Assembly (NCBI RefSeq): GCF_003841485.1
Contig: NZ_REFY01000005.1
Coordinates: 310,001-374,000, forward strand
DNA length: 64,000 bases
Source: Natrarchaeobius halalkaliphilus
GTDB lineage: Archaea > Halobacteriota > Halobacteria > Halobacteriales > Natrialbaceae
Direction: 5' to 3'
Shown here one piece after another: positions 14,735-46,681 of the stretch. Positions within the stretch are counted from its first letter, which is position 1, and each line of letters opens with the position of its first letter. The notes under the pieces were generated by a model, which saw only the letters and a list, made by a program, of their open reading frames with translations, ran no database searches and had not been told where the DNA came from. The translations under genes and the position numbers were made by a program.

Positions 14735-15640
14735 TCAGTAGTCGATTCTCTTCGCCTGTTCAGCTATTTTCTTGGCTGACTCGTAGGACTCCCTATCGAT
14801 GACTCTCCCGTCGATTTTGGGGGCGCTACCGTCCGAGTTATCGTATTTTTTGACGATGCGCATTGCGGCCTCCGCTTCCTCCTTGCTTGGAGAGTACACC
14901 GTATTCGCGATGTCTACCTGTCCGGGGTGAACGACGATCTTTCCGTCGTACCCTAACTTCCGTGACTGTTCGCACGACCGACGAAATCCCTGGACGTCGT
15001 CGACATCGGCGTAGGGCCCATCGATGACGCGCAGATCAGCACTCGAGGCGGCAAGCGATAGCTTCGACAGGGGGTAGTGCCAATAGTGATCGGGGTACTC
15101 ACGCTGTGATTCTTTCGAGAGACCACTCGCACCGATCGACGCCACGTAGTCGCCGGGACCGAAGATCATCGCATCTAATCCCGTACAGGAATGTGCGATA
15201 TCCGAGGCGTTGTTCATGCCGGCTGCCGTCTCTATCTGAGCGGTTATTCGGATGCTCTCCGGATCGATTCCTGCGTTCTCCAGCACTGGTCCCAAGAGAT
15301 TGTTGACCGTATGAAGATCGGACGCGTCCTCGACTTTTGGAATGATCAGGGAGTCGATTTGCTCCCCGACTTCCTCGATGATTTCGATGATATCGTCGTA
15401 CCACCACGGGGACCTGACGTCGTTTATTCGGTAACTGATCGTTTTTCCGTGCCAGTCGTTTGCGATAACGGACTCCGCGAGATTCGACCGAGCGTCGATC
15501 TTGTTGTTCGGCCCGATGGAATCTTCAAGATCGAGAATGATTTCGTCGGCGTCGCTGTCCGTCGCCATGGATATCAAGTCCGTCTCGTTGCCCGGCACTG
15601 CCAAAAGCGAACGACGAAGGCCGAGTGTGTTGGTGGTCAT
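14735..15640 (-). CDS. HpcH/HpaI aldolase / citrate lyase beta-like protein (CitE family)
   Basis: The 301-residue TIM-barrel enzyme has the CitE-type motifs RRSLLAVPGNETDLI, ILDLEDSIGPNNK (acidic metal or CoA region), PKVEDASDL, TAQIETAAG with catalytic-site Glu, FGPGDYVASIG, and GKIVVHPGQVDI near the C terminus. Relatives are citrate lyase beta, malyl-CoA / beta-methylmalyl-CoA lyase, and citramalyl-CoA lyase; all cleave or form C-C bonds of CoA-thioesters. No CitD/CitF partner is nearby, so a stand-alone malyl- or methylmalyl-CoA lyase role is likelier. I start at ATG 15640, which has GGAGG two bases upstream; the frame remains open further upstream but without protein character. Confidence 0.87.
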   Translation of the reverse strand: MTTNTLGLRRSLLAVPGNETDLISMATDSDADEIILDLEDSIGPNNKIDARSNLAESVIANDWHGKTISYRINDVRSPWWYDDIIEIIEEVGEQIDSLIIPKVEDASDLHTVNNLLGPVLENAGIDPESIRITAQIETAAGMNNASDIAHSCTGLDAMIFGPGDYVASIGASGLSKESQREYPDHYWHYPLSKLSLAASSADLRVIDGPYADVDDVQGFRRSCEQSRKLGYDGKIVVHPGQVDIANTVYSPSKEEAEAAMRIVKKYDNSDGSAPKIDGRVIDRESYESAKKIAEQAKRIDY

Positions 15641-16459: not shown

Positions 16460-17686
16460 TCACTCGAGGACCGAGTACGGAAGGACGGATACCGTCGTTT
16501 CAGCCTCGAGCGGGGACTGCGTGAGGACGACGCCGTCAGCGCGACTCGCACGGGTACTCGAGGAGAGGACGCTCGGATCGAACTGGCTGTCATAGACGGA
16601 GAGCGGCGAATCGGCGTGTCCCAGCGCGGTCGTCTCGTATCCGTCTTCGGTTTCCTCGAGCGTGACGGGAACGACGTACTCGAATCCGTCGGGACCGAGT
16701 TCGAGGTCGTGGGTGAGGCGCGCACCGACCGTCGGAAGCGACGTCGTTCCGGTGAAAAACGGGCGCATGACGAACGTCGAAATCGTGTGCGCACCGATCG
16801 GCTTGCCGGGAATCGCGAACGCGACGGCGTCGTGATCGGGTAGCGTGGCCATCGCGATCGGTTTTCCGGGTCGGATTCGAACGCGGTGAAACACCACCTC
16901 GCCAAGCGCGTCGAGTGCGCGGATAACGTGATCTTTGTGTCCAACGCTCGTTCCCCCCGTCGTCAGGACGACGTCGTACTGGTTCGCGAGCCGGTCGATC
17001 GAATCTTCGACGCGCTCGTACTCGTCGGGGACGCTACCCTCGTACGTCGGGTCGTGGCCCCACGACCGGATTAATCCGGCGAGCATGTCCGAATCGAGGT
17101 CGGTAATCCGTCCCTCGTGAATCTCCGTTCCGGTCGCCAGTACGGCCGTCGAAAACGGTTCGTAGACCTCGACTGTCTCCCGTCCCAGATCACCCAGAAG
17201 GATCGCGTCCTTCGGAGAAAGTCGCTCGCCTCGTTCGAAGAGCCGGTCGCCTTCCGAAAGATTGCTCCCACGTTCGTAGGTGTAGGTTCCCGGCTCGAGC
17301 GTCGTTCCCCGAAGCTGATCACCCTCGAGTGAGGAGTCCTCTCGTTTGAGAACAGCGTTCGCCTCGGGGGGAAGAGGGGCCCCAGTCGCGATCGGAACCG
17401 CCTCTCCGGGATCGATCGACGGCGGTTCGTCCTCCGGGAAGACTTCGTCAGCGATCACAGCGAGGGGATACTCGTCGGTCGCATCGAACGCGAACCCATC
17501 CATCGTCGCGTGATCGTGTGCAGGAACGTCGCGCTCTGCAACGATGGACTCGGCAAGCGTTCGTCGTTCGATCGACTCGAGCGGAACGGATCGCGTTTCG
17601 CGTTCGGAGAGAACGGACGAACGCATCTCGAGGACCGACTCCACCGCCGTACGACGCCATATCATATCGCTGTGATCGTGACCCAT
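16460..17686 (-). CDS. moeA: Molybdopterin molybdotransferase MoeA
   Basis: The 408-residue protein matches MoeA, which inserts molybdate into adenylated molybdopterin to make molybdenum cofactor. Visible are the N-terminal domain with AHDHATMDGFAF, VPIATGAPLPPEANAV, the MPT-binding region VVLTTGGTSVGHKDHV, and RIRPGKPIAMATL followed by AIPGKPIGAH. The usual loop reads PGNP; here it is PGKP. The C-terminal domain IV is present. The cytoplasmic product would serve the two molybdenum hydroxylases in the window (23061-27178 and 45266-49093). Starts at GTG 17692, ATG 17686 or ATG 17665 are possible; I chose 17686. Confidence 0.92.
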   Translation of the reverse strand: MGHDHSDMIWRRTAVESVLEMRSSVLSERETRSVPLESIERRTLAESIVAERDVPAHDHATMDGFAFDATDEYPLAVIADEVFPEDEPPSIDPGEAVPIATGAPLPPEANAVLKREDSSLEGDQLRGTTLEPGTYTYERGSNLSEGDRLFERGERLSPKDAILLGDLGRETVEVYEPFSTAVLATGTEIHEGRITDLDSDMLAGLIRSWGHDPTYEGSVPDEYERVEDSIDRLANQYDVVLTTGGTSVGHKDHVIRALDALGEVVFHRVRIRPGKPIAMATLPDHDAVAFAIPGKPIGAHTISTFVMRPFFTGTTSLPTVGARLTHDLELGPDGFEYVVPVTLEETEDGYETTALGHADSPLSVYDSQFDPSVLSSSTRASRADGVVLTQSPLEAETTVSVLPYSVLE

Positions 17687-17748
17687 ACCCACATACTAGA
17701 CGGTCGGCCAATTGAATCATGCGGTCTCGATGAACCGGCTCGGAGGAA

Positions 17749-18984
17749 TCAGGCCAATCGTCGGAGCGTTCGCTTCATTTCGTTGTTCGTGATGAGATAC
17801 GGCTCGTCGACTCCCATTCCCGGTTTCGCGAGCAGTTGATCCGGTCGGGTAGCAAGGCCAACGTGAGTCGAGACGCGTGCAGAGATGTCCGTCTCCGCAC
17901 AGCTACCACCCAGATAGGCGAGGATATCCGTTCCGGAGCAGTATCGGACGGCATCGATGCTGTTCGTGAGGTCACCGAGATCGGGCATTTTTATCTGTAC
18001 CATATCGACGGCATCGGCGTCGACGAACGCCGTGACGTCCTCGTAGGTGTTACAGAACTCATCAGCGACGATGTCGACCGGAATCGAGTGGTCCGTCAAT
18101 GCGTCTCGAAGCGTTCCGAGCGCGGTGATCTGCTCGCTTCTGGATCCCGCTTCGATCGGGCTTTCTATCCGAAGCTGGTAGGGTGATGCGGCGCGTTCGA
18201 GCTCCGCGAAGTAGTCGACGATATCTGTCGTATCGTACGGTGGATCGAAAATCTCGCCAACGGTACCGTAGATGTCGAGATGAATCGTCGGACGGTACGA
18301 CGACGAGCCGAGTTCGGAGATTCGTTCGCTCAGCCACGAGAGATACTCGAGCAGCCGCTCGCCGTCGGCCCCGATGTCGTCTACCGAGTTGAACAGTCCG
18401 TGGGGGAGAACCGGAACCCGTTTGAGGATCATCTTTTCCGCGTTGTCGTATCGGTTCGACCCACTCTGGGTGAAGATCGGAACCGGCTGTGGAACGAGGT
18501 CCAGATCGTACGCATCCGTAATAACCTCCGTCATCGTCTTCGAGTCAGCGATCGCCGCCGTCTCGAGAAGCGCCTGCGAAAGGCCGTACCGGACCGCCGT
18601 GTGCAATCCGCCGGTCTCGGCGGCGACCTCGTCGATCGTCGCAACGTTGTTCGTAAAGTCGGATGCGTCGCGGCCGACGAGCGCGTCCGAAACGGTCGCT
18701 TCGATATCGTCGAGGTGCGAGTCGGCATCGAAGTAGACGTCACGGCCACCGAACCCGGAGTACTGGACCGCCGTGCACTCGCCAACCCCGATCCGTCCGT
18801 TCGTGAGTTCGATCTGGACGCTTATCGCCTCTGCCGGCTGGCGAACCCGAGAGAAACCGGGAGTAACCGGTTCACCCGCGTAGGAAAATCCGTCGCGGTC
18901 TGCGGTGGTGACGATCGCTTCCTTATCATCGAAGAAGTATCCACCGAGCGTTGGCACTGCAACGACGTCTGCAATCGCTGGCAT
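17749..18984 (-). CDS. mal: Methylaspartate ammonia-lyase
   Basis: The 411-residue protein aligns end to end with my memory of the clostridial enzyme (413 residues), which converts threo-3-methylaspartate to mesaconate plus ammonia. Enolase-superfamily metal ligands are Asp237 (HLDIYGTVG), Glu274 (RIESPIE) and Asp308 (IVADEFCNT); the catalytic Lys is Lys332 (VQIKMPDLG). Gln173 (FTQSG), His195 (VLPHG) and Cys362 are also kept. The clostridial GGTCNET loop reads GGSCAET here, so the substrate-contacting Thr is Ser. In haloarchaea this enzyme belongs to the methylaspartate cycle or glutamate catabolism. Glutamate mutase is not in the window. The start ATG 18984 follows an A/T-rich tract. Confidence 0.93.
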   Translation of the reverse strand: MPAIADVVAVPTLGGYFFDDKEAIVTTADRDGFSYAGEPVTPGFSRVRQPAEAISVQIELTNGRIGVGECTAVQYSGFGGRDVYFDADSHLDDIEATVSDALVGRDASDFTNNVATIDEVAAETGGLHTAVRYGLSQALLETAAIADSKTMTEVITDAYDLDLVPQPVPIFTQSGSNRYDNAEKMILKRVPVLPHGLFNSVDDIGADGERLLEYLSWLSERISELGSSSYRPTIHLDIYGTVGEIFDPPYDTTDIVDYFAELERAASPYQLRIESPIEAGSRSEQITALGTLRDALTDHSIPVDIVADEFCNTYEDVTAFVDADAVDMVQIKMPDLGDLTNSIDAVRYCSGTDILAYLGGSCAETDISARVSTHVGLATRPDQLLAKPGMGVDEPYLITNNEMKRTLRRLA

Positions 18985-19147: not shown

Positions 19148-20392
19148 ATGATCGCCATCGACCACGAACGGCTTCGATCCGACATCGAAGCGAACGCACG
19201 CCACGGTGCGATCGAGACCGACACGGGGCGAGGCCGAACGGTCCTGACCGGCTCGGATGCGGATAAACACGTCCGCGAGCGGTTCATCGATCGCCTCGAG
19301 GACGCCGGACTCGATCACCGAATCGACCGGGTCGGGAACATCGTCGGACGGTGGGTGCCAGAGGGAGCCTCCGAAGAAACGCCACCGGTCGCACTCGGAA
19401 GCCATCTCGATTCCGTCCCGAGTGGAGGCATATTCGACGGACCGCTCGGCGTCTACAGCGCTCTCGAGGCGGTCCGTTCGATCCAGGAGTCCGACGAAAC
19501 TCCCTCGCGACCGCTCGAGGTCGTCTGTTTCACCGAAGAGGAGGGAAGCCAGTTCGGAATCGGAACGCTCGGATCGCGCGTCATGACGGGGAGAATGTCG
19601 GTCGAATCGGCGCTCGAGTTGACCAACGACGGCGGCGAGACGCTCGAACAGCGTCTCGAGCGGATCGGGTTCGCGGGGACGGGCGATATCGATCCCGCAA
19701 CGTGGCACGCGTGGTTCGAAGTACACGTCGAACAGGACACGCGTCTGGAATCCGCGGGCGTTCCGATCGGTACCGTCGATTCGATCTCGGGGATCACGAA
19801 CTGTGCGGTGACCGTGACCGGGGAGGCAAATCACGCCGGGGCAACGTCGATGGACGAGAGACGCGACGCGCTGGTGGCAGCCGCCGAGTTCGTCGTCGAC
19901 GTCGAACGGATCGCCGAAGAGATCGCAGCGGAACACCCGAGCGCCGTGGCGACCGTCGGCCGACACGACGTCGAACCGAACGTCAGGAACATCGTCCCCG
20001 GTGGCGTGACGATGCAGATGGACATCCGCGCGACCGAGTCCGACGTGATCGACACCCTCGTCGACCGATACGCGGACAGGCTCGATCGTCTGGAACGACG
20101 TCGTCCGGTCGAAACGTCGATCGATCGCTACCGTGATACGCCGCCGATCGGCTTGTCCGAGCGCTGCATCGATGCGATCAACCGCGGGGCCGACCGACAA
20201 GGAGTCGATTCGATGGACCTGTACTCGGCGGCGATCCACGATACGGCGAACGTCTCGACTGTAACGGACGCAGGAATGCTGTTCGCACCGTCACGCGACG
20301 GAATCTCGCATTCGCCACAGGAGTGGACGGAGTGGGAAGACTGTGCCACCAGCGCTGGCGTGCTGGCGGCCGCTGCACTCGAAGTCACCTAA
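19148..20392 (+). CDS. M20-family amidohydrolase (allantoate amidohydrolase / N-carbamoyl-amino acid hydrolase type)
   Basis: The 414-residue enzyme has the dinuclear-metal signature of the AllC/HyuC branch: LGSHLDSVPSGGIFDGPLG with His86 and Asp97, CFTEEEGSQFG with Glu131/132, EVHVEQD, NHAGATSMDERRDA in the lid domain, and a C-terminal ISHSPQEW with the last metal His. Family members split the amide of allantoate, ureidoglycolate or N-carbamoyl amino acids, releasing ammonia and CO2. Its place upstream of RidA, CoxG, a cyclic amidohydrolase and a molybdenum hydroxylase suggests it acts on the ring-opened product. It is divergent from the methylaspartate ammonia-lyase. Confidence 0.88.
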   Translation: MIAIDHERLRSDIEANARHGAIETDTGRGRTVLTGSDADKHVRERFIDRLEDAGLDHRIDRVGNIVGRWVPEGASEETPPVALGSHLDSVPSGGIFDGPLGVYSALEAVRSIQESDETPSRPLEVVCFTEEEGSQFGIGTLGSRVMTGRMSVESALELTNDGGETLEQRLERIGFAGTGDIDPATWHAWFEVHVEQDTRLESAGVPIGTVDSISGITNCAVTVTGEANHAGATSMDERRDALVAAAEFVVDVERIAEEIAAEHPSAVATVGRHDVEPNVRNIVPGGVTMQMDIRATESDVIDTLVDRYADRLDRLERRRPVETSIDRYRDTPPIGLSERCIDAINRGADRQGVDSMDLYSAAIHDTANVSTVTDAGMLFAPSRDGISHSPQEWTEWEDCATSAGVLAAAALEVT

Positions 20393-20489
20393 TCACGCGG
20401 CCGTGTGAGCCGTTCGGTTCGATCTCCCGTGAGAAGGTCACCTCCTATGGCGGCAGTAGTTTTTACTTGTCGCTTCGTCGAGCTAGCGT

Positions 20490-20933
20490 ATGGAACGCTA
20501 CGCCATCAACCCGAAACCGCTGAAGGACGCACGAGAGATCGGATACAATCACGGGATCGTCGCGAACGGAACGTTCTACATGGCCGGACAGGTCGCGATG
20601 GACGCGGAGTCGAACGTCATCGGTGACGATATCGAAACGCAGGCCAGAAAAGCCTACGAGAACGTCGGTATCCTGCTCGACGCGATCGGAAAGGACTTCG
20701 AGGACGTTGCGAAGGTCACCACACACATCATCGACCCACACGAACGGTACTTCGACGGGTACAAAACCGTCTACTTCGAGACGTTCGACGAACCGTATCC
20801 GTGCCACACCGTTCTCGGAGCACACCAGCTCGCACACGAAAAGTATCTCCTCGAGATCGAAATCGAGGTGCCGTTATCGGCAGACGACATCGATGCGATC
20901 GAACCTGACGGCGACGTGATCCGATCCATCTGA
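20490..20933 (+). CDS. RidA/YjgF/UK114-family protein
   Basis: The 147-residue protein has the Rid fold pattern: a YNHGIVANGTFYMAGQVAMD start, IETQARKAYENVGILLDAIG helix, then VAKVTTHIIDP. The C-terminal strand ends LEIEIEVPLS, where the canonical RidA Arg (R-V-E-I-E) is replaced, so this is one of the non-archetypal Rid subfamilies. RidA proteins hydrolyse reactive enamines/imines; several subgroups cluster with pyrimidine, ureide or amino-acid catabolism. Position between the M20 hydrolase and CoxG on the same strand supports membership of the same pathway. Confidence 0.87.
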   Translation: MERYAINPKPLKDAREIGYNHGIVANGTFYMAGQVAMDAESNVIGDDIETQARKAYENVGILLDAIGKDFEDVAKVTTHIIDPHERYFDGYKTVYFETFDEPYPCHTVLGAHQLAHEKYLLEIEIEVPLSADDIDAIEPDGDVIRSI

Positions 20934-21081
20934 GACGGCTGTTTTCAGTCAGTCCAGGTGAGACCGTGACCGCCCAGCGAACGCGCCAGCGCACCGCCCC
21001 AGCGGAGTGGAGACGAACGGTCGTGGAGTACCGTCCTAGCAATCGCTGGAAATATATCCCAGGAGCGTAATACGACGTAGT

Positions 21082-21546
21082 ATGGAAGTCGAGGAGACTG
21101 TCTCAGTTCCTACTGACCGTGAGACCGTGATCGAACAGATGCAACGGCCGGACGTGCTCGAGCGGGTGATCCCGAACTGTACCGGGGTCGAAGAGGTCGA
21201 TAAACGGGTGTACGAGGCCGAAGTTTCGGAATCGGTCTCGCGAGTGTCGCTCGATCTCGAGGTGGATCTCGAGGTCACGGAATTCAACCCGCCGGATTCG
21301 TTCGTCGTCAGCGTCGACGGCGAAGCGCCGGGGAGCAACACGCAGGTTCAGGCCGAAGCGCGCTACGAACTCGAGGAAAACGACGATCAAACGGACATTC
21401 ATCAGACGATGACGATCGACGTGAGCGGAAAGCTCGCGTCGCTCGGCTTTCGGATGCTGCGGAGTACGGTCAACAAGCGGATGCAAACGATGGTGGACAA
21501 CGTTCAGGCCGAGTTCGAGGAGCCGACGAGCACCGTCGAGTCCTGA
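21082..21546 (+). CDS. CoxG-like SRPBCC protein
   Basis: The 154-residue product resembles CO dehydrogenase subunit G: MEVEETVSVPTDRETVIEQM, VIPNCTGVEEVDKRVYEA (the I-P-G-C-like bend), a central beta region, TMTIDVSGKLASLGFRML, and a C-terminal helix with NKRMQTMVDN. CoxG proteins are thought to bind lipids or membranes and to help recruit or mature molybdenum hydroxylases; they accompany many such enzymes besides CO dehydrogenase. The neighbouring MoCo hydroxylase genes at 23061-27178 agree with that. No CoxD/CoxE partner is seen. Confidence 0.85.
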   Translation: MEVEETVSVPTDRETVIEQMQRPDVLERVIPNCTGVEEVDKRVYEAEVSESVSRVSLDLEVDLEVTEFNPPDSFVVSVDGEAPGSNTQVQAEARYELEENDDQTDIHQTMTIDVSGKLASLGFRMLRSTVNKRMQTMVDNVQAEFEEPTSTVES

Positions 21547-21692
21547 AGCGGAGTGCTTTTATACTGACTTACGGCGGTCCGTATCAGTCGGCTCGCGGTG
21601 GTCCAACGGAGGGAACTCGAAGGACGTCTGGACGGGCGGGCCAGACCTTCACTAAGCGAACGATTTATGCGGATACAGTAAAAGACAGAGGT

Positions 21693-23033
21693 ATGTCTGA
21701 CGTCGATACTCAGTTTTCGGGCGGACGCGTCTACCATGCCGGCGAGCTTATGGACCTGACGGTCGGTGTTACCGACGGAACCGTAACGCATCTCGCAAGG
21801 CCGGGGACGGCGTTGAACGCGACAGAGCAGATTGAACTGGACGGCGAGTGGATCCTTCCGGGATTCGTAGACGGCCACATCCATCTCAGAGAGCCGGGGT
21901 ACGTGGAAAAAGAGGGCATCGAAACGGGAACCGCGGCAGCGGCCGCAGGCGGGGTAACGACCATCGTCGAGATGCCGAACACGACGCCGCCCGTCCTCGA
22001 CGTGGATCGACTCGAGGAGAAGGCGGCCCGGTTCGCCCGAGACTCGCACGTAGACCACGCGTTTTTCGGTGCGATCACGGAAGAAAACGTCGGGACGGGG
22101 AATATCGAAGCGCTCGCTGAAGCGGGAATCACCGCGTTCAAGACGTTCATGGCGACGAGTTTCGGCCCGCTGCTGATGGACGATAAGGGAGTGCTGTATC
22201 GGGCGTTCGAGGAGGTTTCGGACACCGGATTGCCGCTGTATATCCACGCGGAAGACGAGGAGTACCTAGACGAGTTCACGACGCGGTGTAAAGACCAGGA
22301 CGGAATGGACGCGTTCTTCGACTCCCGGCCACCGATCGCGGAAACCACGGCCGTCAGCGACGTCCTCGATATGGTCGAAGCGACGGGAGCCGAGACGGTG
22401 ATCGCCCACGTGACGACGGCCGAAGCGCTGTCGCGAATCCGGGACGGGAGAGCCGACGGACTGCCCGTCCACGCGGAGGTGACGCCGTATCACCTCACGT
22501 TCGATCGCTCTGACGTCGCTGCGATCGGGACCGCCGCGATCGGAACGCCGCCTGCTCGCGACTCGCAAAACTTCGAGGGGCTCTGGACTCATCTCCGGAA
22601 CGGCGACGTTCAGTTGCTGGGATCGGACCACGCCCCGCATCGGCTCGAGGAGCGCGACCAGCCTCCGCTCGAGGTTCCGCCGGGAATGCCACAGCTCGAG
22701 ACGGCCGTTCCGGCGATGTTAGAGGCGATCGATCGCGGCCGGCTCTCGGTCGAAAAACTCGTCGAACTCTACGCCGAAAGTCCGGCTCGACTCCACGGAC
22801 TCTATCCACGCAAGGGGACGATTCGACCAGGTGCCGATGCCGACCTGGTCGTCGTCGATCCGGATCGCGAGTGGGAGGTCGACGCGACCCGCTTTGAGAG
22901 TGCGGCGGACTACAGTCCGTTCGACGGGATGACGCTGACGGGAATGGCGACCGCGGTCTATCAGCGCGGAACGATGATCGCAAAAGGGGGGGAAACGGTG
23001 AGCGAACCCGGAGACGGTATCCGGCTGTCGTAA
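21693..23033 (+). CDS. Cyclic amidohydrolase (dihydroorotase / allantoinase / hydantoinase family)
   Basis: The 446-residue TIM-barrel amidohydrolase has DGHIHLREPG (His62, His64), ETGTAAAAAGGVTTIVEMPN, FKTFMATS with a Lys150 likely carbamylated, LYIHAEDEEY and VIAHVTTAEA with metal His residues, and LLGSDHAPH with the catalytic Asp. A carbamylated Lys followed by the binuclear site is the allantoinase/hydantoinase plan, while HLREPG and SDHAPH resemble dihydroorotase. It hydrolyses a cyclic amide or ureide ring. Beside an AllC-type hydrolase and a molybdenum hydroxylase, a ureide or hydantoin substrate is more likely than a biosynthetic PyrC role. The exact substrate is inferred. Confidence 0.87.
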   Translation: MSDVDTQFSGGRVYHAGELMDLTVGVTDGTVTHLARPGTALNATEQIELDGEWILPGFVDGHIHLREPGYVEKEGIETGTAAAAAGGVTTIVEMPNTTPPVLDVDRLEEKAARFARDSHVDHAFFGAITEENVGTGNIEALAEAGITAFKTFMATSFGPLLMDDKGVLYRAFEEVSDTGLPLYIHAEDEEYLDEFTTRCKDQDGMDAFFDSRPPIAETTAVSDVLDMVEATGAETVIAHVTTAEALSRIRDGRADGLPVHAEVTPYHLTFDRSDVAAIGTAAIGTPPARDSQNFEGLWTHLRNGDVQLLGSDHAPHRLEERDQPPLEVPPGMPQLETAVPAMLEAIDRGRLSVEKLVELYAESPARLHGLYPRKGTIRPGADADLVVVDPDREWEVDATRFESAADYSPFDGMTLTGMATAVYQRGTMIAKGGETVSEPGDGIRLS

Positions 23034-23060
23034 TCGATCGGACCGTCCCGTCGGTTCTCG

Positions 23061-25382
23061 TTAGTCGTCTGCCTCGGTCATCGCCGTAAACACTTTTTCC
23101 GGTGAGGCGGGGAGCTCCGTGACGCGCCCGCCGATCGCGTCGTAGATGCCGTTTAAGATGGCGGCCGGCGTCGCAGTGATCGACGGTTCACCGATCCCTT
23201 TCGCACCGTACGGTCCGTTTCCGGACTCGGACTCGAGGATGATCGTCTCCATCTCCGGCGCGTCGGCCGTCGACGGCAGCTTGTAATCCGAGAGGTTTCG
23301 CGTGAGCGGAACGCCGTCGTCCAGGGAGTAATCCTCCATGAGCGCGTAGCCGAGTCCCTGAACCGCACCGCCTTCGATCTGTCCCTGAACGCGCGAGGGG
23401 TTGATCGCCTTTCCGACGTCGTGAGCGAGTGCGAGTTTGCTCACGGAGACCTCACCGGTGCGGGTGTTGACCTCGACCTCCGCGGCCTGGGTACTGAACG
23501 TGAAGTCCGGGAAGATCGATCCTTCGAGGATTTCGTCCTCGATCGGTGGCTCCGTCGGGGCGCGGAAGGTCTCTAGGTTCTGTAGCGGATTCCCCTCCGC
23601 GTGGCAGGCGATGACGACGTCGCTTACTGAAACCTCGTTCGTTCGGCCCGACGTGTGGACGACGCCATCGGAGATGTCCAGGTCGTCCGCGTCCTCCTCC
23701 AAGAGGTCCCCCGCTTTCTCGAGTATCTGCTGGCGGAGCGTATTGGCCGTCTTTCGAACCGCGTTTCCGGACATGTACAGTCCGCGCGAGGCGGTCACGG
23801 TCCCGCCCAGCGGAGTCGACTGCGTGTCGCTCGAATTCACCTGGATATCCTCGGTCGGAATACCGAGTTCCTCGGATGCGATCTGTCGCAGAGACTCGCG
23901 CTGTCCGCCGCCGAGGTCCGGAATACCGGAACGAACGATCGCGCTGCCGTCTTTCTCGAGTCCGACCCACGACGAGGAGATGTCCCCGAGATACCGCATC
24001 CGTCCGTACGATTGCCAGCTACTGGCAAAGCCCTGTCCGACGACGACGTCCGGATCGTCGGACTGGGACGGCTCCCCGAGCGCGTCGAGGGCGGCGTCCT
24101 GGGACTCTCCGAGCATGACTGCCGAATCGATCGGCTGACCCGTCGCCGTCGTATCCCCTCGCTCGAAATAGTTCTTCCGGCGGAGTTCGGCGGGGTCCAT
24201 CTCGAGTTCGCGGGCGATGGCGTCGATCTGTTGTTCGACGCCGAACGTCGCTTCGACGGCACCGAACGAGCGGAACGCACTCCCCGGCGTGTTGTTCGTC
24301 AGCACGGAGTAGCCGTCGGCTTTCACGTTCGGAATGTCGTACGGGCCGGTGGAGTGATAGGTCGCGTACATCAGGATCCACGGGCTCAAGTAGACGTACG
24401 CACCGGAATCGGAGACTAGCTCTGACTCGACGGCGACGAGGTTTCCATCCTCGTCTGCGGCGTGTTTGTATCGGACGGTAAACGGCGATCGTTTGTGTCG
24501 ACCGACGAACATTTCGTCGCGATCGTAGGTGAGTTTTACCGGTCGTCCGGTTTCCCACGTGAGCAAGGCGATGTACGGTTCGACGGTGAGGTCTTCTTTT
24601 CCGCCGAATCCGCCGCCCATAAGGGTTCCGCGGACGCGGACTTTGCTCTCGGGAAGGTCCAGAATCTCCGCGACCTCCCGGTATTGCTCGATAACCTGGG
24701 TCGCGACTCGAAGGTTCAACACGCCGTCATCGTCGATCCAGGAGACGCCGGATTCGGGTTCCAGATGTGCGTGCTCCTGGAACGACGTTTCGTAGGTGTC
24801 CTCGACGACGACCGCCGCGTCCTCGAACGCCTCGTCGACGTCACCCTCTCTGAGTTTCCAGCGGGCGATGACGTTGTTGCCTCCGTGAACCTCGGGTGCG
24901 TCCGGTTCCATCGCCTCTCTGGGATCGAAGACGCCCTCCTTCGACCCGTAGCTCACACGAATGCGCTCGGTCGCCTCGGAAGCGATCTGTGGATCCGTGG
25001 CCGCGACGATCGCGATCGGTTCACCGAAAAATCGGACGACGTCGTCCGCGAGTACCTGATGTTTGGCTTCGAGCAATCCGACCTCCTGAGATTGTCCAAC
25101 GACGTTCGATGCCGACTTGTTGTTCGGGACGTCCGCAGCCGTAATGACGGCCTCGACGCCGTCTATCGCTTCGGCCTCGGACGTATCGACGTCTTCGATA
25201 GTGGCGGACGCGCGTGTCGATCGACACACGTTGGCGTGTAACAGTCCGTCCGCATCGAAGTCGTCCGCATACGTTAGCTCGCCGGTGACTTTCGAGCGGT
25301 CGTCCGGACCGTAGTGGCTGGTCCCGACGCTCGAGAACACCCGCTTCGTCTGCTGTTCCGTCTGGAGTTGATTAGCGGTCAT
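23061..25382 (-). CDS. Xanthine dehydrogenase-family molybdenum-binding subunit (large)
   Basis: The 773-residue protein is the Mo-cofactor subunit of a molybdenum hydroxylase. It begins with the domain-1 pattern RSKVTGELTYADDF. It has GGGFGGKED with Glu263 at the position of bovine XDH Glu802, and SAFRSFGA with Arg371 at the position of Arg880, both purine-orienting residues. The catalytic Glu near the C terminus is in AKGIGEPSI. It lacks the C-S-F-R active-site loop of true CO dehydrogenase. Partners are the FAD and iron-sulfur subunits encoded divergently at 25818-27178. It probably hydroxylates a purine-like or other N-heterocycle, passing electrons to FAD. TATA-like TAAATCG lies about 28 bases upstream. 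Confidence 0.92.
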   Translation of the reverse strand: MTANQLQTEQQTKRVFSSVGTSHYGPDDRSKVTGELTYADDFDADGLLHANVCRSTRASATIEDVDTSEAEAIDGVEAVITAADVPNNKSASNVVGQSQEVGLLEAKHQVLADDVVRFFGEPIAIVAATDPQIASEATERIRVSYGSKEGVFDPREAMEPDAPEVHGGNNVIARWKLREGDVDEAFEDAAVVVEDTYETSFQEHAHLEPESGVSWIDDDGVLNLRVATQVIEQYREVAEILDLPESKVRVRGTLMGGGFGGKEDLTVEPYIALLTWETGRPVKLTYDRDEMFVGRHKRSPFTVRYKHAADEDGNLVAVESELVSDSGAYVYLSPWILMYATYHSTGPYDIPNVKADGYSVLTNNTPGSAFRSFGAVEATFGVEQQIDAIARELEMDPAELRRKNYFERGDTTATGQPIDSAVMLGESQDAALDALGEPSQSDDPDVVVGQGFASSWQSYGRMRYLGDISSSWVGLEKDGSAIVRSGIPDLGGGQRESLRQIASEELGIPTEDIQVNSSDTQSTPLGGTVTASRGLYMSGNAVRKTANTLRQQILEKAGDLLEEDADDLDISDGVVHTSGRTNEVSVSDVVIACHAEGNPLQNLETFRAPTEPPIEDEILEGSIFPDFTFSTQAAEVEVNTRTGEVSVSKLALAHDVGKAINPSRVQGQIEGGAVQGLGYALMEDYSLDDGVPLTRNLSDYKLPSTADAPEMETIILESESGNGPYGAKGIGEPSITATPAAILNGIYDAIGGRVTELPASPEKVFTAMTEADD

Positions 25383-25657
25383 ACGTATTAGACGTGTGGG
25401 TAAGTACGATTTACCGTCCTGTGGTTGTCTGCACCGTCAGTCGAACCGACGGGAGAGCCCCGGAGTTCGACGACGAGTTCGCTCATACTACCGTACGAGT
25501 GATGATAGTACTATCAGTATTAAAATCTTTGGCGAGCCGACGGAGGCTGTCGGGGAAAACGACGATCTTCAGATGCGCGGGTGAAAGATGAGATGGAGTC
25601 CGAAGAGCCGATATCCGAATTCTTCGGTTTCGTCGGCTCGAAGGGCGACGTTCAATG

Positions 25658-25743
25658 AGACGGTTTGCTGTGACTTTTTACCGGGGCGACCGCGAGCTGT
25701 CCTGCGGTCGCTCCGGTAACGACTTACAGTAGACCGTATGAGA
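25658..25743. repeat. Dispersed imperfect palindrome, full copy
   Basis: The left arm contains GACGGTTTGCTGTGAC, then ACCGGGGCGACCGC. The right arm contains GCGGTCGCTCCGGTAA, then CGACTTACAGTAGACCGTAT. The reverse complement of the left arm matches the right arm with a few mismatches over about 35 bases, around a loop of about 10. The same architecture is at 53821-53904; half copies are at 14681 and 39477. Confidence 0.7.
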
Positions 25744-25787
25744 GGTCGGCAATCGTGAGGTAAAACCGCGGCCGACATGGGGCGAAG

Positions 25788-25795
25788 CTTTAATA
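25788..25795 (+). promoter_or_regulatory. TATA box of the FAD/FeS subunit operon
   Basis: CTTTAATA is centred 26-27 bases before ATG 25818, supporting a leaderless start there rather than at the in-frame ATG 25827. Confidence 0.5.
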
Positions 25796-25817
25796 CCGTA
25801 TCCGGGAGATCATTGAG

Positions 25818-26687
25818 ATGACGCGTATGTCAGCGCAAACCGAGTACCACAGACCGGAAACCATCGATTCGGTCTGTGAGATGTTAGAGGAGTTATCCGA
25901 TCCGACGATCGTTGCCGGGATGCAGTCCCTCGGATTACTGATGAAGGAGGGAATCGTCTCGCCAGAGACGCTGGTCGACATCAACGGTGTGGAGGGATTG
26001 GACGGAATCGAACGAGAGGACGACCACGTCCGCCTCGGCGCGATCGCAAACCACAGAGATGTCGAGTGTTCGGAGATCGTCACAGAGGGAGTTCCAGTTC
26101 TCGCGACGGCTGCGAGTGAGATCGCGGATCTCCAGATTCGAAACGCCGGAACGATCGGTGGTGCAACGGCGTACGCGGATCCGACGGGAGACTACCCGCC
26201 GGTTCTGATGGCGCTCGATGCCACGATCGTTTCCCGGACGACCGACGACGAACTCGAACGTGAGGCCGGAGAGTTCTTCACCGGCTTCTATGAGTGCGCG
26301 CTCGGTCCGTCGGAGCTGCTGACCGAGATCCGCGTTCCCACGATCGGTGACGGTGAAGGAACAGGATACGAGAAGTTGGCGTATCGAGAGAACGATCGGG
26401 CGATCGTCAACGTCGCGACGTATCTGTCCTTAGAGGACGACCGGTGTGGCTCCGCGCGGATCGTCGTCGGAAGCGTTTCCGACCGACCCGTGTTCGCACC
26501 GGACGCTGCGGACTCCCTCGTCGGGACGGCCGTAACGGACGACGATATCGCTGAGGCGGCCGAGGCGACAGCCGAAGAGGTTCCCATCGATCCCGATCCC
26601 ACGGTTTCGGTCGACTACCGACGATCGATGGTCCGAAACCTGACCGAAAAAACGCTTCAGACCGCGCGCGAGGAGGGACACCAATGA
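25818..26687 (+). CDS. FAD-binding subunit of molybdenum hydroxylase (CoxM type)
   Basis: The 289-residue protein has the FAD-binding type 2 fold of the medium subunit: a region ending TIVAGMQSLGLLMK (the A-G-G-Q-like pyrophosphate loop), RLGAIANHRDVE, and NAGTIGGATAYADPTGDYPP, the conserved T-I-G-G-x-x-x-x-A-D-P loop. The C-terminal CO-dehydrogenase flavoprotein domain follows. It carries electrons from the iron-sulfur subunit to an acceptor. Its 3' end overlaps the next gene by four bases (ATGA). Confidence 0.93.
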   Translation: MTRMSAQTEYHRPETIDSVCEMLEELSDPTIVAGMQSLGLLMKEGIVSPETLVDINGVEGLDGIEREDDHVRLGAIANHRDVECSEIVTEGVPVLATAASEIADLQIRNAGTIGGATAYADPTGDYPPVLMALDATIVSRTTDDELEREAGEFFTGFYECALGPSELLTEIRVPTIGDGEGTGYEKLAYRENDRAIVNVATYLSLEDDRCGSARIVVGSVSDRPVFAPDAADSLVGTAVTDDDIAEAAEATAEEVPIDPDPTVSVDYRRSMVRNLTEKTLQTAREEGHQ

Positions 26688-27178
26688 CAGAACTGACCCT
26701 GACGGTAAACGATGAACAGCAAACGATCGACGTCGATCCGTCGAAACCACTCGTCGACGTTCTTCGTGACGATCTGGGACTAACCGGAACGAAAAAAGGC
26801 TGCTCCACCGGCGTCTGTGGAGCTTGTACCGTTCGAATCGACGATGAACCCCGAAAAGCCTGCATGCACATCGCAGGAATGGTCGACGGCAAATCGATCG
26901 AGACCATCGAAACCCTCTCCGACGGGGACGATCTCCACCCCGTGCAGGAAGCCTTCCTCGAGGAGTTCTCGCTCCAGTGTGGGTTCTGTACGCCCGGGTT
27001 CATCATGTCCGCTGTCGCGTTGCTCGAGGAGAACCCGGATCCGACCGACGAGGAAATCGAGACCGCACTCCACGGGAACACCTGTCGCTGTACCGGATAC
27101 GACATGATCTTCGAGGGCGTAAAGCGGGCAGCGAACGAGATGAACAACGAGTCAGCGGCCCAGCCAGCCGACGATTAG
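26684..27178 (+). CDS. [2Fe-2S] subunit of molybdenum hydroxylase (CoxS type)
   Basis: The 164-residue protein has two iron-sulfur domains. The N-terminal plant-ferredoxin cluster is GCSTGVCGACTV with a further Cys near KACMH. The C-terminal four-helix cluster is LQCGFCTPGFIM and GNTCRCTGYD. All eight expected cysteines are visible. It relays electrons from the Mo centre to FAD. It is translationally coupled to the FAD subunit; the Mo subunit is on the opposite strand, an uncommon split of the three genes. Confidence 0.95.
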   Translation: MTELTLTVNDEQQTIDVDPSKPLVDVLRDDLGLTGTKKGCSTGVCGACTVRIDDEPRKACMHIAGMVDGKSIETIETLSDGDDLHPVQEAFLEEFSLQCGFCTPGFIMSAVALLEENPDPTDEEIETALHGNTCRCTGYDMIFEGVKRAANEMNNESAAQPADD

Positions 27179-27290
27179 GCACGACCGACGGTGGCGCTGG
27201 CGCACACGATCGAGCAACTCGAATCGTCGTACTCCGAGACGGAACGAGCGGCGGCGAAGGGTTTTTGCGGAACCGTTGAGATGAGTGCGT

Positions 27291-28280
27291 ATGTCCCGCA
27301 CTGTACGAATCGTCCACCTCGATCCGGACTGGTTTGGTGACGTAGAACAAGAACGACGAGCGTTCGAACGGGAGTTCGACGCGGTCCGTGTCGACGCCGT
27401 CGACGTGCCGGCCGACGCGTCTGCTGGCGAAATCGCACGAGAAGTCGGAGAGGCTGATGCACTCCTCACCCACTACACCGACGTATCGGGGCCGCTGATG
27501 GACGCGACTGGATGTTCGGTCGTCAGCCGGTACGCCACCGGTATCGACGGCATCGACGTCGAGGCGGCCACCGAACGTGGCGTCAAGATTGCGAACGTTC
27601 CAACCTACTGTGACCGGGAGGTGGGCGAACACGTGGCCACGCTCGCGATGGCCTGTCTCCGAGGACTCCCGCAGTACACCTCCTCGACCGCCGACGGAGA
27701 GTGGGACTGGAGCGCGGTCGATCCGGTGAGATCGTTCTCGGAACTCTCGTTCGGGTTTCTCGCGTTCGGGAACAAAGCCCGTGCGGCCGCGGATATCGCG
27801 ACCGCCGTCGGCTTCGAGTGTCTCGCCGCCGACCCGTTCCTCGACGACGAAACGATCGAGCGTGCCGGCGTCGAACCCGTCGAGTTCGACGAACTGATCG
27901 AACGGTGTGACGTGCTATCAGTTAACGCCCCATTGACCGACGAAACCAGAGAGATCATCGACGAAGACGTCCTCGAGCGGATGCCCGACTCGAGCGTTCT
28001 CATCAACACCTCGCGGGGGGAACTCGTCGACGAAAGCGCGTTGCTCGACGCCCTCGAGGACGGGCCGTTGCTCTCGGCCGGCCTCGACGTCCTCGCGAAC
28101 GAGCCGCCGGCCGAGACGAATCCGCTGCTGGGCCGGTCCGACGTGTTCGTGACGCCACACGCCGCCTGGTACTCCGAGCGGTCGGTGGACGAACTCATCG
28201 AGAAGGGATCGGAGGCGGTAATCGCGGCATACGAGGAACATCAACACGAAGGGATCGTCAACCCCGAGACGCTCGAGTGA
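27291..28280 (+). CDS. D-2-hydroxyacid dehydrogenase family protein
   Basis: The 329-residue product has the family plan: an N-terminal catalytic half with SRYATGIDGIDVEAATERGV and VGEHVATLAM, a Rossmann domain, and catalytic Arg (INTSRGELVD), Glu (DVLANEPP) and His (VTPHAAW). The dinucleotide loop, normally G-x-G-x-x-G, reads AFGNKA, so two of three glycines are Ala. That may alter cofactor binding. Family members interconvert 2-oxoacids and (R)-2-hydroxyacids with NAD(P)H. It lies downstream of the MoCo operon and 69 bases before the aminotransferase. The start is ATG 27291, or GTG 27285. Confidence 0.88.
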   Translation: MSRTVRIVHLDPDWFGDVEQERRAFEREFDAVRVDAVDVPADASAGEIAREVGEADALLTHYTDVSGPLMDATGCSVVSRYATGIDGIDVEAATERGVKIANVPTYCDREVGEHVATLAMACLRGLPQYTSSTADGEWDWSAVDPVRSFSELSFGFLAFGNKARAAADIATAVGFECLAADPFLDDETIERAGVEPVEFDELIERCDVLSVNAPLTDETREIIDEDVLERMPDSSVLINTSRGELVDESALLDALEDGPLLSAGLDVLANEPPAETNPLLGRSDVFVTPHAAWYSERSVDELIEKGSEAVIAAYEEHQHEGIVNPETLE

Positions 28281-28349
28281 TCGGCCCCGTCTCGGTGAAC
28301 CACCGAACGGAGACCAAACGACTTTATTGATCCTGTGACAGCTAGTATC

Positions 28350-29519
28350 ATGAACGCGAACGGATGCGCCGACCGGATCGTTCGGATGCCCGAGTCGGGC
28401 ATCAGAGAGGTCTTCGACAAAGCGGCACAGTACGACGACATCGCGGACCTCAGTATCGGGGAACCGGACTTTACGACGCCGGAACCGATCATCGACGCGG
28501 TCGACGAGCGGGTCAGGGCGGGGGCAACACACTATACGCCGACGGCAGGTCGATCCGATCTTCGCGAGTCGCTTTCGAGAAAGCTCGCACGGGAGAACGA
28601 CATCTCGGTCGATCCCGAATCGGAGGTTCTCGTCACACCCGGGGCGATGGGCGCGCTGTTCGAGTCGATACACTCGCTCGTCGATCCCGGTGACGAAGTC
28701 GTCATCCCCGAGCCGTTCTGGCCGAACTACCACGGTCACGTCGCCAGCGCCGGGGGAACCATCGTTCCCGTCGAGACGGACCGAAAAGACGGTTTCGTCC
28801 CGTCGCCTGATCGCATCGCCGACGCGATCACGGCCGACACGAAACTGCTCGTACTGAACACGCCATCGAACCCGACCGGGGCGGTGATTCCGCAAGCCAC
28901 GCTAGAGCGGATCGCGTCGGTCGTCGACGAGGCCGACATCTGGTGTCTCGTCGACGAGACGTACGAGTCACTCGTCTACGACGACCGCGAACACTACTCG
29001 ATCGCGAGCGATCCGGCACTGTTCGACAGGACGGTGACGGTCCACAGTTTCTCGAAGGCGTACGCGATGACCGGATGGCGGGTCGGCTACGTCTCCGGGC
29101 CGTCCCATATCATCGATTCGATCCGCGTACTTCAAGAACACACCGTCTCGAGCGTCGCGGAACCCGCACAGGTCGCCGCGATGGCCGCACTCGAGTCGCC
29201 GGAACTTCTCGAGGAGATACGCGAGACGTTCGATCGACGGCGAACGCTGATGGTCGACCGTCTCGGGTCGGTGCCGGGCCTCTCGCCGGTCGACCCTGCC
29301 GGTGCGTTCTACGTCTTTGCCGAACTCACCGGAACCGAACTCGACAGTCGCTCGGTCGTGATGCGGCTACTCGAAGACGAACAGGTCGCCGTCGTCCCCG
29401 GTTCCGTCTTCGGAGAATCGGCCGAATCGTTCCTTCGCCTCTCGTATGCGACTAACGAGGCGACGATCGAAGACGGAACGGATCGGATGCGACGCGTTTT
29501 CGAGTCGTTCTCGGCGTAA
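28350..29519 (+). CDS. Class I/II pyridoxal-phosphate aminotransferase
   Basis: The 389-residue enzyme is a fold-type I aminotransferase of the aspartate aminotransferase family. It shows LSIGEPDFTTPEPI, THYTPTAGRSDLRE, NTPSNPTGAV, VDETYESLVYDD with PLP-binding Asp/Tyr, and the lysine motif HSFSKAYAMTGWRVGY. The C-terminal Arg that binds the substrate carboxylate is in ESFLRLSYAT. It transfers an amino group between an amino acid and a 2-oxoacid. It lies between a hydroxyacid dehydrogenase and an acyl-CoA dehydrogenase, so it may supply or remove the 2-oxoacid used there. A GTG at 28335 is an alternative start. Confidence 0.92.
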   Translation: MNANGCADRIVRMPESGIREVFDKAAQYDDIADLSIGEPDFTTPEPIIDAVDERVRAGATHYTPTAGRSDLRESLSRKLARENDISVDPESEVLVTPGAMGALFESIHSLVDPGDEVVIPEPFWPNYHGHVASAGGTIVPVETDRKDGFVPSPDRIADAITADTKLLVLNTPSNPTGAVIPQATLERIASVVDEADIWCLVDETYESLVYDDREHYSIASDPALFDRTVTVHSFSKAYAMTGWRVGYVSGPSHIIDSIRVLQEHTVSSVAEPAQVAAMAALESPELLEEIRETFDRRRTLMVDRLGSVPGLSPVDPAGAFYVFAELTGTELDSRSVVMRLLEDEQVAVVPGSVFGESAESFLRLSYATNEATIEDGTDRMRRVFESFSA

Positions 29520-29596
29520 TTCCGGCCTGGCTTTTAAACCATTGGCGTACGGTGAGTGATCGCTTACCGTACTCTACCGACAACGATAGGGCAACG

Positions 29597-30766
29597 ATGA
29601 ACTTCGACTGGCCACAGGAGTACGCGCTGATCAAGCAGGTGATCGCTGACATCGTCGAGGACTACCCCGACGAGTACTGGCGCGACGTCCGCGCCGAGAA
29701 TCGGTTTCCGACGGAACTGTATCAGGACCTCGCTGACGGCGGCTGGCTGGGGATTCTCTTTCCCGAGCGCTTCGACGGACAGGACATGGACCTGCTCGCG
29801 TTGCTGGCCGTCGTAGAGGCGCTTGCCGAAGAGGGCGCGTGGATCGGTGCCGTCTCGCTCATCTCCGGGCCGGTGTTCGGGGGACTCTCGGTCCTCGAGC
29901 ACGGGACCGAAGCCCAAAAAGAGCGCTACCTGCCGTCGATCGTCGACGGGAGCGAACGCTGGGCGCTCGGCGTGACGGAGGCGAACGCGGGACTGAACAC
30001 GACGAACATCCAGACGAAGGCCGAACGGGACGGCGACGAGTTCGTCATCGAGGGCGGCAAGCAGTTCATCTCGGGCGTGGACCACTCCCATCGAATGCTC
30101 TTGCTCGCCCGGACGACGGCAAAAGCCGACGTGGACTCGCCGGCCGACGGCATCACGATGTTCATCCTCGATCTCGAGGACGACGCCATCAGCTACGACG
30201 AGATCGACCTGGACATCTACTATCCAGAGCGGACGTTCGAGATTCAACTCGACGAGGTGAGAGTGAGCGAGGAGGACGTCCTCGGGACGGTCGACGGGGG
30301 CTTCCAGCAGCTGTTCGACACGCTCAACACCGAACGAATCATCCTCGGGGCGTGTTCGTGGGGGGCGGGAAAGACCGTTCTCGACGCCGCCGTCGAACAG
30401 GCTCGCGAGCGCGTCGTCTGGTCGGAACCGATCGGCGGCCATCAGGCGATCCAGCACCCGCTCGCGGACGCCTACGCGGACCTCGAGAGCGCCAGATTGG
30501 TCCTCAGAAAGGCAGCCTGGCAGCAGTCGAACGGTCGCGACGGAGTCGGAGAGGCCGCGAACCTGGCGAACCTTCAGGCGGGGAAAGCGGCCTGGAGCGC
30601 CGCCGAAGCGTCGATGACGACGTTCGGCGGTATGTCGGTCGCCTCGGAGATGGGCGTCGCGGCCGCGTGGGGATTCATCCGCCACGCCAGGACGGTCCCC
30701 GTCAGCGAGGAGATGATCCGAAACTACCTCGGACAGCACACTCTCGGACTCCCGAAGTCCTACTGA
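29597..30766 (+). CDS. Acyl-CoA dehydrogenase family protein
   Basis: The 389-residue flavoprotein has the three-domain acyl-CoA dehydrogenase layout. The N-terminal helices include LADGGWLGILFPERFDG, the middle beta domain has GVTEANAGLNTTN (a variant of the T-E-P-x-A-G-S FAD loop) and IEGGKQFISG, and the C-terminal helices include EPIGGHQAIQHPLADAYADL, the conserved Q-x-x-x-H/Q-x-L-A-D segment. It dehydrogenates an acyl-CoA at the alpha-beta bond. The stop is two bases before the ATG of the first CoA-transferase, so it is the leading gene of a three-gene unit. I place the start at ATG 29597. Confidence 0.92.
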   Translation: MNFDWPQEYALIKQVIADIVEDYPDEYWRDVRAENRFPTELYQDLADGGWLGILFPERFDGQDMDLLALLAVVEALAEEGAWIGAVSLISGPVFGGLSVLEHGTEAQKERYLPSIVDGSERWALGVTEANAGLNTTNIQTKAERDGDEFVIEGGKQFISGVDHSHRMLLLARTTAKADVDSPADGITMFILDLEDDAISYDEIDLDIYYPERTFEIQLDEVRVSEEDVLGTVDGGFQQLFDTLNTERIILGACSWGAGKTVLDAAVEQARERVVWSEPIGGHQAIQHPLADAYADLESARLVLRKAAWQQSNGRDGVGEAANLANLQAGKAAWSAAEASMTTFGGMSVASEMGVAAAWGFIRHARTVPVSEEMIRNYLGQHTLGLPKSY

Positions 30767-30768
30767 TC

Positions 30769-33221: not shown

Positions 33222-33297
33222 GGTGTACGGTCCGTTGTGACGGTGTACCGACCCAACCGGCGAACAGTATAACGTGGCTCCGGTCCGTACGGCCGGT

Positions 33298-38638: not shown

Positions 38639-38690
38639 AGATAGTGAGTCATTCCCAAGGACACTCAACCCTGTTCCGCCTAGCGGCGGG

Positions 38691-38699: not shown

Positions 38700-38720
38700 G
38701 TACGGGTGAAAGATACGGCT

Positions 38721-40810: not shown

Positions 40811-40937
40811 AGTTATCCACACCCCTTGTTCTGATCCAAATGTCTTAACCGTTTTGGCGAAATCAAGAACCGTTGCTGGGGAAACGTCGATGGAAAACGA
40901 GGGAGTCCGTCCCTCGAGTAAAAATCAGACGGCTGCG

Positions 40938-42146: not shown

Positions 42147-42340
42147 GGTCAACAACTATTCCTTTTGTTGCCGATTGCTTAATCTTTTCGGGAAAGCAGA
42201 TATGGTGTTCGAGAGGAATGCCTCGTTGATATAAATAGTTCGGCTCTGTCATAAACAGATTGACTTTTGTATGAGGATTGCTAGAGTGAATACGTTCACC
42301 GCAAGCAGTGTGACGAGCAATCTGCGACACATTATTATAA

Positions 42341-45040: not shown

Positions 45041-45093
45041 GATCGTCCACAAATCGTCTCGTCGAACGCCCTCGAGGTATCCTGATTCGATAA

Positions 45094-45107
45094 CGGTCTG
45101 CAGACCG
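45094..45107. promoter_or_regulatory. Perfect 14-base palindrome
   Basis: CGGTCTGCAGACCG lies between the convergent ATPase and [2Fe-2S] subunit genes. It resembles the outer end of the dispersed palindrome (ACGGTCTGCTGTAA / CAGACCGT) and may be a minimal remnant, or part of a termination hairpin. Confidence 0.35.
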
Positions 45108-45775: not shown

Positions 45776-45777
45776 TG

Positions 45778-46671: not shown

Positions 46672-46681
46672 TCGTTATCAC

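Follow-up and report, generated by a model that had tools for sequence, protein, structure and literature searches.

How does a haloarchaeon finish the breakdown of histidine when its hut operon has no hutG, and do the nitrogen-ring genes beside that operon take part? These questions are raised by a stretch of 64,000 nucleotides from Natrarchaeobius halalkaliphilus (contig NZ_REFY01000005.1, positions 310,001 to 374,000; hereafter the window). A preliminary description of this DNA had grouped an AllC/HyuC-type M20 hydrolase, a RidA-family protein, CoxG, a cyclic amidohydrolase and a three-subunit molybdenum (Mo) hydroxylase, at 19148-27178, into one pathway for the oxidation and opening of a nitrogen heterocycle or cyclic ureide. 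Profile searches recovered all five families at these positions. The idea of a single catabolic unit stands, the ring being most likely imidazole or hydantoin; the gene list ended too early and overlooked the adjacent hutU-hutI-hutH operon at 34-38.7 kilobases (kb). The earlier view of a nitrogen-ring catabolic unit was thus partly right and is re-centred here on histidine. We consider it fairly probable that the region is a cluster for the degradation of histidine and related imidazoles, in which HutG, the formimidoylglutamase that normally ends the pathway, has given way to a RidA module, M20a serves the second step, and branches for hydantoin and imidazolepropionate have been added. The replacement of HutG by the RidA module, taken by itself, is very likely. 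The argument turns first on these genes:

19148..20392, plus strand: M20a, an M20 metallohydrolase of the L-carbamoylase/AllC type (TIGR01879, 342.7 bits, cut-off 204)
20490..20933, plus strand: RidA-family protein (PF01042, 70.6 bits against a cut-off of 27.3)
33274..33936, plus strand: HTH1, a regulator of the HVO_A0563 type (PF24280 and HTH_10)
34038..35687, minus strand: hutH, histidine ammonia-lyase (TIGR01225, 631 bits, above cut-off)
35644..36912, minus strand: hutI, imidazolonepropionase (TIGR01224, 505 bits, above cut-off)
36899..38668, minus strand: hutU, urocanate hydratase (TIGR01228, 967 bits, above cut-off)
38706..39374, plus strand: HTH2, a regulator of the HVO_A0563 type adjoining hutU (PF24280 and HTH_10)

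The three hut genes all exceed their curated cut-offs and are bracketed by the two regulators. Within the operon hutU and hutI overlap, and there is therefore no room for hutG between them. Haloferax volcanii has hutH, hutI, hutG and hutU as HVO_A0559 to A0562 (PMC8305020), and HVO_A0563, judged by its locus number, would adjoin hutU. An arginase-family gene was found between hutU and hutI in 27 of the 30 haloarchaeal hutI loci that we read; the three exceptions were the window and the loci of genomes G073 and G133, both of which carry the same RidA. The source genome gave no TIGR01227 match above cut-off and no match to a haloarchaeal HutG at 1e-40. It encodes four arginase-family proteins, three of the agmatinase type (two of them above cut-off) and one arginase. 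A paralogue doing the work of HutG was considered and rejected, as the scores of these proteins fit agmatinase or arginase. In some bacteria formiminoglutamate is deiminated by HutF. Neither HutF (TIGR02022, above cut-off) nor N-formylglutamate deformylase (FGase, PF05013) was present in any of the 20 genomes searched, while the Caulobacter positive control matched in both searches; a HutF/FGase route was rejected on the absence of both enzymes from the hutG-less set.

The distribution of RidA carries the argument further. One sample of 391 haloarchaeal genomes was searched with HutI, a haloarchaeal HutG and the window RidA as queries. The hutI gene occurred in 183 genomes, 164 with hutG and 19 without it. 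The window RidA subfamily (at least 68% identity) was present in 18 of these 19 and in a single one of the 164 (Fisher p = 1e-22, not corrected for common descent), and every genome that carries the subfamily has hutI. The hutG-less genome that also lacks RidA, G036, holds an M20a fragment and an orphan hutI with neither hutU nor hutH within 10 kb, which points to a broken pathway. Only G147 combines hutG with RidA, and there M20a is interrupted by an internal stop. The exchange was made repeatedly. RidA-type clusters are scattered over a tree of 43 HutI proteins, with six label changes, at least four of them forced by well-supported branches; G073, which has RidA, is placed as sister to its congener G044, which has hutG. 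A relic of hutG, comprising 58 residues of the HutG C-terminus, persists in the hutU-hutI gap of the RidA-carrying genomes G133 and G215 (best E values 4e-12 and 2e-7, with different HutG queries), and in G256 the same gap holds RidA itself.

When genes near RidA and hut were clustered across 20 genomes, the recurrent members were RidA, the HTH regulators (15 of 20 neighbourhoods), a PotA-type ATPase of an ATP-binding cassette (ABC) transporter (14 of 20) and M20a, followed by a D-2-hydroxyacid dehydrogenase (D2HDH) and an AspC-type aminotransferase (each in 11 of 20) and transporter parts. The synteny of the five families first listed, to which the preliminary description had looked across Halobacteria, is kept only in close relatives, the two Natrarchaeobius genomes; what Halobacteria conserve more widely is M20 paired with RidA, accompanied by hut genes but not by hutG. 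As a separate observation on HutI, its match reads through one in-frame TGA in G084, G016, G102, G168, G269, G276, G212 and G371. These genomes belong mostly to one genus, and the TGA could mark either a genuine stop that recurs or the end of a frame inside the aligned stretch.

Since formiminoglutamate has an N-CH=NH group and Rid proteins act by hydrolysis of C=N bonds, the natural guess for the hut-linked RidA is deimination to N-formyl-L-glutamate. The window protein keeps the conserved Glu (E122) and Tyr (Y19) of the Rid family, in which the active site is located between subunits. Arg105 of TdcF aligns with His106 of the window RidA; the catalytic arginine is thus replaced, and Cys105 stands before it (motif PYPCHT). 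His106 and Cys105 are near-invariant in 21 RidA sequences, and a C-terminal extension is common to the hut-linked members. The known RidA imine hydrolases need the catalytic arginine, and the Rid subfamilies without it had no function assigned in the 2015 family survey (PMC4433059). We found no paper in the open literature that links RidA with formiminoglutamate. The balance tips slightly in favor of this subfamily being an unrecognized formiminoglutamate hydrolase, which would act on the formamidine without the arginine, perhaps by way of the Cys-His pair, and which would have displaced the metal-dependent HutG several times.

The nearest solved chain to M20a is the N-carbamoyl-L-amino acid hydrolase 3n5f. 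M20a adjoins RidA in 12 other haloarchaeal genomes, and in G216 the order is hutU-hutI-M20a-RidA. In a tree built from best matches, a non-exhaustive sample, the RidA-adjacent M20 proteins fall within a clade of 18 (support 98/96), the remaining members of which also come from hutG-less genomes; the M20 proteins sampled from genomes with hutG fall outside it. The presence of M20a was rejected as a second complementary marker, raw similarity being too broad (matches above 50% occur in many genomes with hutG), and the tree alone separates the clade. A Geobacillus L-carbamoylase, an enzyme of the same type as 3n5f, is reported to use N-formyl amino acids better than N-carbamoyl ones (PMC7431475). 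We propose that M20a is an N-formyl-L-glutamate hydrolase, possibly active on N-carbamoyl-L-glutamate as well.

Relatives of M20a were seen in other settings. A third M20a-like hydrolase (69% to M20a) at L139 (G000:C7:6816-10865) adjoins a hydantoinase-like amidohydrolase (31% to HydA, listed below) and an enolase-superfamily enzyme. At L077:7472-10389 (G000:C4) a UAAP2-like protein, an agmatinase-family protein and an M20 protein of the allantoate amidohydrolase type stand in a row; M20 proteins just as similar are found in further haloarchaea, whether or not these have hut. Two loci, L169:10646-23317 (a plasmid of Haloarcula sp. GH36) and L128 (G368), have M20a-RidA beside a divergent hutU (68%) and a hutH-like lyase (34%), together with a dihydropyrimidinase-like amidohydrolase, a D-aminoacylase, a 2,4-diaminopentanoate-dehydrogenase-like protein and a glycine-betaine type ABC transporter; their substrate is perhaps hercynine- or ergothioneine-like.

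In Natrarchaeobius the RidA module stands among further genes, including some for coenzyme A (CoA) enzymes:

16460..17692, minus strand: MoeA, Mo cofactor enzyme (PF03453, PF00994)
21082..21546, plus strand: CoxG, Mo-hydroxylase accessory protein (PF06240)
21693..23033, plus strand: HydA, cyclic amidohydrolase of the dihydroorotase (DHOase)/allantoinase/hydantoinase-like group, L-hydantoinase-like (best solved chain 1gkr)
23061..25382, minus strand: XdhL1, Mo hydroxylase large subunit (family profiles)
25818..26687, plus strand: XdhM1, Mo hydroxylase FAD subunit (PF00941, PF03450)
26684..27178, plus strand: XdhS1, Mo hydroxylase 2x[2Fe-2S] subunit (PF01799, PF00111)
27285..28280, plus strand: D2HDH, proposed imidazolelactate dehydrogenase (PF02826)
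28335..29519, plus strand: AspC-type aminotransferase, proposed to act on histidine/imidazolepyruvate (profile match; neighborhood recurrence)
29552..30766, plus strand: acyl-CoA dehydrogenase (AcDH), proposed to convert imidazolepropionyl-CoA to urocanoyl-CoA
30763..31950, plus strand: CaiB1, family III (CaiB) CoA-transferase 1 (profile match)
31947..33221, plus strand: CaiB2, family III (CaiB) CoA-transferase 2 (profile match)
42341..43585, plus strand: M20b, second carbamoylase-type hydrolase (adjoins M20a in N. chitinivorans)
45266..49093, minus strand: second three-subunit Mo hydroxylase (XdhS2, XdhM2, XdhL2)

M20a, RidA, CoxG and HydA are collinear on the plus strand, with gaps of 97, 148 and 146 base pairs. 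The XdhM1 and XdhS1 genes overlap and are the first two of a seven-gene run ending at 33221, which continues with D2HDH, AspC, AcDH and the two CaiB genes (27285-33221). Outside the source genome this larger cluster was found, among the searched genomes, only in Natrarchaeobius chitinivorans, again without hutG. There it comprises MoeA, M20b, M20a, RidA, CoxG, HydA, Mo hydroxylase, D2HDH, AspC, AcDH, CaiB1 and CaiB2, and goes on to hutH-I-U and a second Mo hydroxylase. The set in the window has the same order, with 63-92% protein identity; AcDH, at the same position, is 91% identical. In both Natrarchaeobius genomes MoeA lies near the cluster (79% in L082) and the second Mo hydroxylase lies beside the hut operon. 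The arrangement is not due to chance, given the collinearity, the small gaps, the XdhM1/XdhS1 overlap and the order kept in N. chitinivorans. As the gene runs of both genomes mix hut-module and added genes, the added genes are tied to imidazole metabolism.

The best solved chain for HydA is the L-selective hydantoinase 1gkr (257 bits, with the runner-up at 199 and the lead given as 57 bits), and the metal-ligand motifs DGHIH, AFKTF, IHAE, AHVT and GSDHAPH can be read in its sequence. No HydA orthologue above 40% identity was found in the 292 haloarchaeal genomes sampled; that of N. chitinivorans is 84% identical. Haloarchaeal matches at about 38% were rejected as orthologues, as they are DHOase-type genes in other contexts. 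HydA might have been the sole biosynthetic DHOase of the genome, a possibility raised at the outset and now rejected: a second gene, at G000:C2:594631, resembles the DHOase-like genes of other Halobacteria, a type found throughout the class. No hydantoin racemase was seen in the cluster.

The substrates and reactions that we infer for the cluster would be as follows. HutH, HutU and HutI would convert histidine to N-formimino-L-glutamate. RidA, the constant member of the module, would most likely hydrolyze the formimino C=N bond, with release of N-formyl-L-glutamate and ammonia; deformylation by M20a would follow, yielding L-glutamate and formate. In a less likely variant, RidA or M20a would release glutamate directly. 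We regard the order of RidA and then M20a as an even call. AspC and D2HDH would probably feed imidazolelactate and imidazolepyruvate into histidine. Other organisms are known to oxidize imidazolonepropionate to hydantoin-5-propionate; in Natrarchaeobius this step would probably fall to the Mo hydroxylase, with CoxG and MoeA, HydA would open the product to N-carbamoyl-L-glutamate, and M20a or M20b would take the latter to glutamate. This hydantoin-5-propionate branch is plausible, and we assign HydA and the Mo hydroxylase to imidazolonepropionate and hydantoin-5-propionate only tentatively. AcDH and the CaiB pair may convert imidazolepropionate to urocanate via CoA esters. Glutamate could enter the methylaspartate cycle, for which there is an apparent gene cluster on contig C8.

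Several points weigh against this scheme. The RidA subfamily is without the arginine that Rid imine hydrolases need, and therefore its chemistry must differ from theirs. No M20a-clade member was identified in four genomes that have RidA (G073, G133, G215 and G256), and a deformylase step by M20a is therefore not universal. The part of the cluster with HydA and the Mo hydroxylase is present in only two congeneric genomes; as HutI is kept, growth on histidine does not depend on the hydantoin branch. Finally, glutamate formimidoyltransferase (FtcD) could also take formiminoglutamate. It did not turn up as a recurrent family near RidA and hut, and no genome-wide FtcD search was made.

The rival that survives best, which we nevertheless consider unlikely, has M20a as the real substitute for HutG. 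M20a would hydrolyze formiminoglutamate directly, yielding glutamate together with formamide (or ammonium and formate), while RidA would only clear a reactive imine, for example among by-products of imidazolonepropionate. The adjacency of M20a to RidA, the gene order in G216 and the confinement of the M20a clade to hutG-less genomes in the sample are consistent with this account, and formimino-, formyl- and carbamoyl-glutamate have similar shapes. However, it is RidA alone that tracks the loss of hutG: the four genomes just named have RidA with no identified M20a-clade member, and in Salinigranum marinum M20a is truncated while RidA is intact.

It is less probable again that the hutG-less genomes use FtcD or a repurposed agmatinase, with RidA a regulator or protector that travels with hut clusters. 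The agmatinase paralogues of the source genome, and an FtcD analysis confined to gene neighborhoods, leave some place for this account. Yet the RidA/hut neighborhoods share no additional recurrent gene family, and the presence of RidA matches the loss of hutG near one-to-one through several independent switches. About as improbable, or marginally more so, is a mainly hydantoin route, in which imidazolonepropionate is oxidized to hydantoin-5-propionate, HydA opens the ring, the M20 enzyme decarbamoylates and RidA is a helper. The pairing of L-hydantoinase and L-carbamoylase types, the Mo hydroxylase with CoxG and MoeA, the precedent for the oxidation and the ErtD/ErtE-like scores argue for it, although these scores are below the equivalog cut-offs (269 of 600-650 and 348 of 520 bits). 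Every RidA-carrying genome keeps HutI, and outside Natrarchaeobius no RidA/hut neighborhood includes HydA or the Mo hydroxylase; the hydantoin route therefore cannot account for the loss of hutG in general, though it could be a side branch in Natrarchaeobius.

A purine route, with the Mo hydroxylase as xanthine dehydrogenase (XDH), HydA as allantoinase, M20a as allantoate amidohydrolase and the hut genes incidental, takes the best family names at face value and is very improbable, because the allantoinase (AllB, 316 of 358 bits), AllC (214.5 of 598 bits) and XDH models all score below their curated cut-offs, because XdhL1 keeps the substrate Glu (E-B232) of R. capsulatus XDH but has Tyr for Arg-B310 while XdhL2 is without the Glu as well, and because RidA and M20a follow hut genes rather than purine genes across genera. 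The alignment register for XdhL1 is fixed by record 2w55, which has Gln at the wild-type Glu position. No uricase, HIU hydrolase or OHCU decarboxylase was found among the annotated genes of the window, and no genome-wide search for them was run. The sequence comparisons thus disfavor a purine route.

The remaining features of the neighborhood are these:

14735..15640, minus strand: CitE/malyl-CoA-lyase-like protein, peripheral, its link uncertain (profile match)
17749..18984, minus strand: second methylaspartate ammonia-lyase (TIGR01502, above cut-off)
39602..42155, minus strand: two solute-binding proteins of an ABC transporter (PF13416)
43682..45040, plus strand: PotA-type ABC ATPase, of the family recurrent in RidA/hut neighborhoods

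The two methylaspartate ammonia-lyases of the source genome are 54% identical; one stands with MoeA beside the hut-linked cluster, and the other belongs to the apparent methylaspartate-cycle cluster on C8 (L143:7145-13903). The enzyme was dropped as a core member, since the N. chitinivorans cluster has none and the source genome has the other copy elsewhere. The interval 39602-51709, with M20b, three solute-binding proteins, the PotA-type ATPase, a permease and the second Mo hydroxylase, adjoins the hut operon, and this neighborhood is the same in N. chitinivorans. Downstream of the second Mo hydroxylase, an aldehyde ferredoxin oxidoreductase-like protein (56950-58659) lies near an aminotransferase (54582-55916).

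The near one-to-one exchange with HutG in several lineages gives one arginine-less Rid group a precise candidate substrate, N-formimino-L-glutamate. If the RidA module does take the place of HutG, histidine degradation would have one more way of carrying out a classic step, and the automatic labels "detoxifying hydrolase" for RidA, "allantoate amidohydrolase", "allantoinase" and "xanthine dehydrogenase" would be corrected in many haloarchaea. The Natrarchaeobius version may include archaeal genes that serve the hydantoin-5-propionate branch and the use of imidazolepropionate.

Comparison with known systems places the cluster among four of them. With the canonical haloarchaeal hutU-hutG-hutI-hutH (HVO_A0562-A0559) the window shares the order of hutU, hutI and hutH and a regulator of the HVO_A0563 family beside hutU; it differs in having no hutG and in the addition of RidA and, usually, M20a, AspC, D2HDH and an ABC transporter. 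The proposed logic, to deiminate formiminoglutamate and then deformylate the product, is that of bacterial HutF with HutG2 (N-formylglutamate deformylase), whereas here neither HutF nor FGase is present and the RidA and M20 folds would perform both steps. The Rid imine deaminases RutC, TdcF and YabJ have the PF01042 fold, E122 and Y19 in common with the window RidA, in contrast to its His in place of Arg, the preceding Cys, the C-terminal extension and the linkage to hut. Lastly, the Hyu L-hydantoinase/L-carbamoylase and the ErtD/ErtE enzymes of ergothioneine utilization are of the same types, a 1gkr-like amidohydrolase and a 3n5f-like M20 protein, and would share with the window the logic from hydantoin-5-propionate through N-carbamoyl-Glu to Glu; unlike them, the window proteins score below the ErtD and ErtE cut-offs and show linkage with a Mo hydroxylase and with hut genes.

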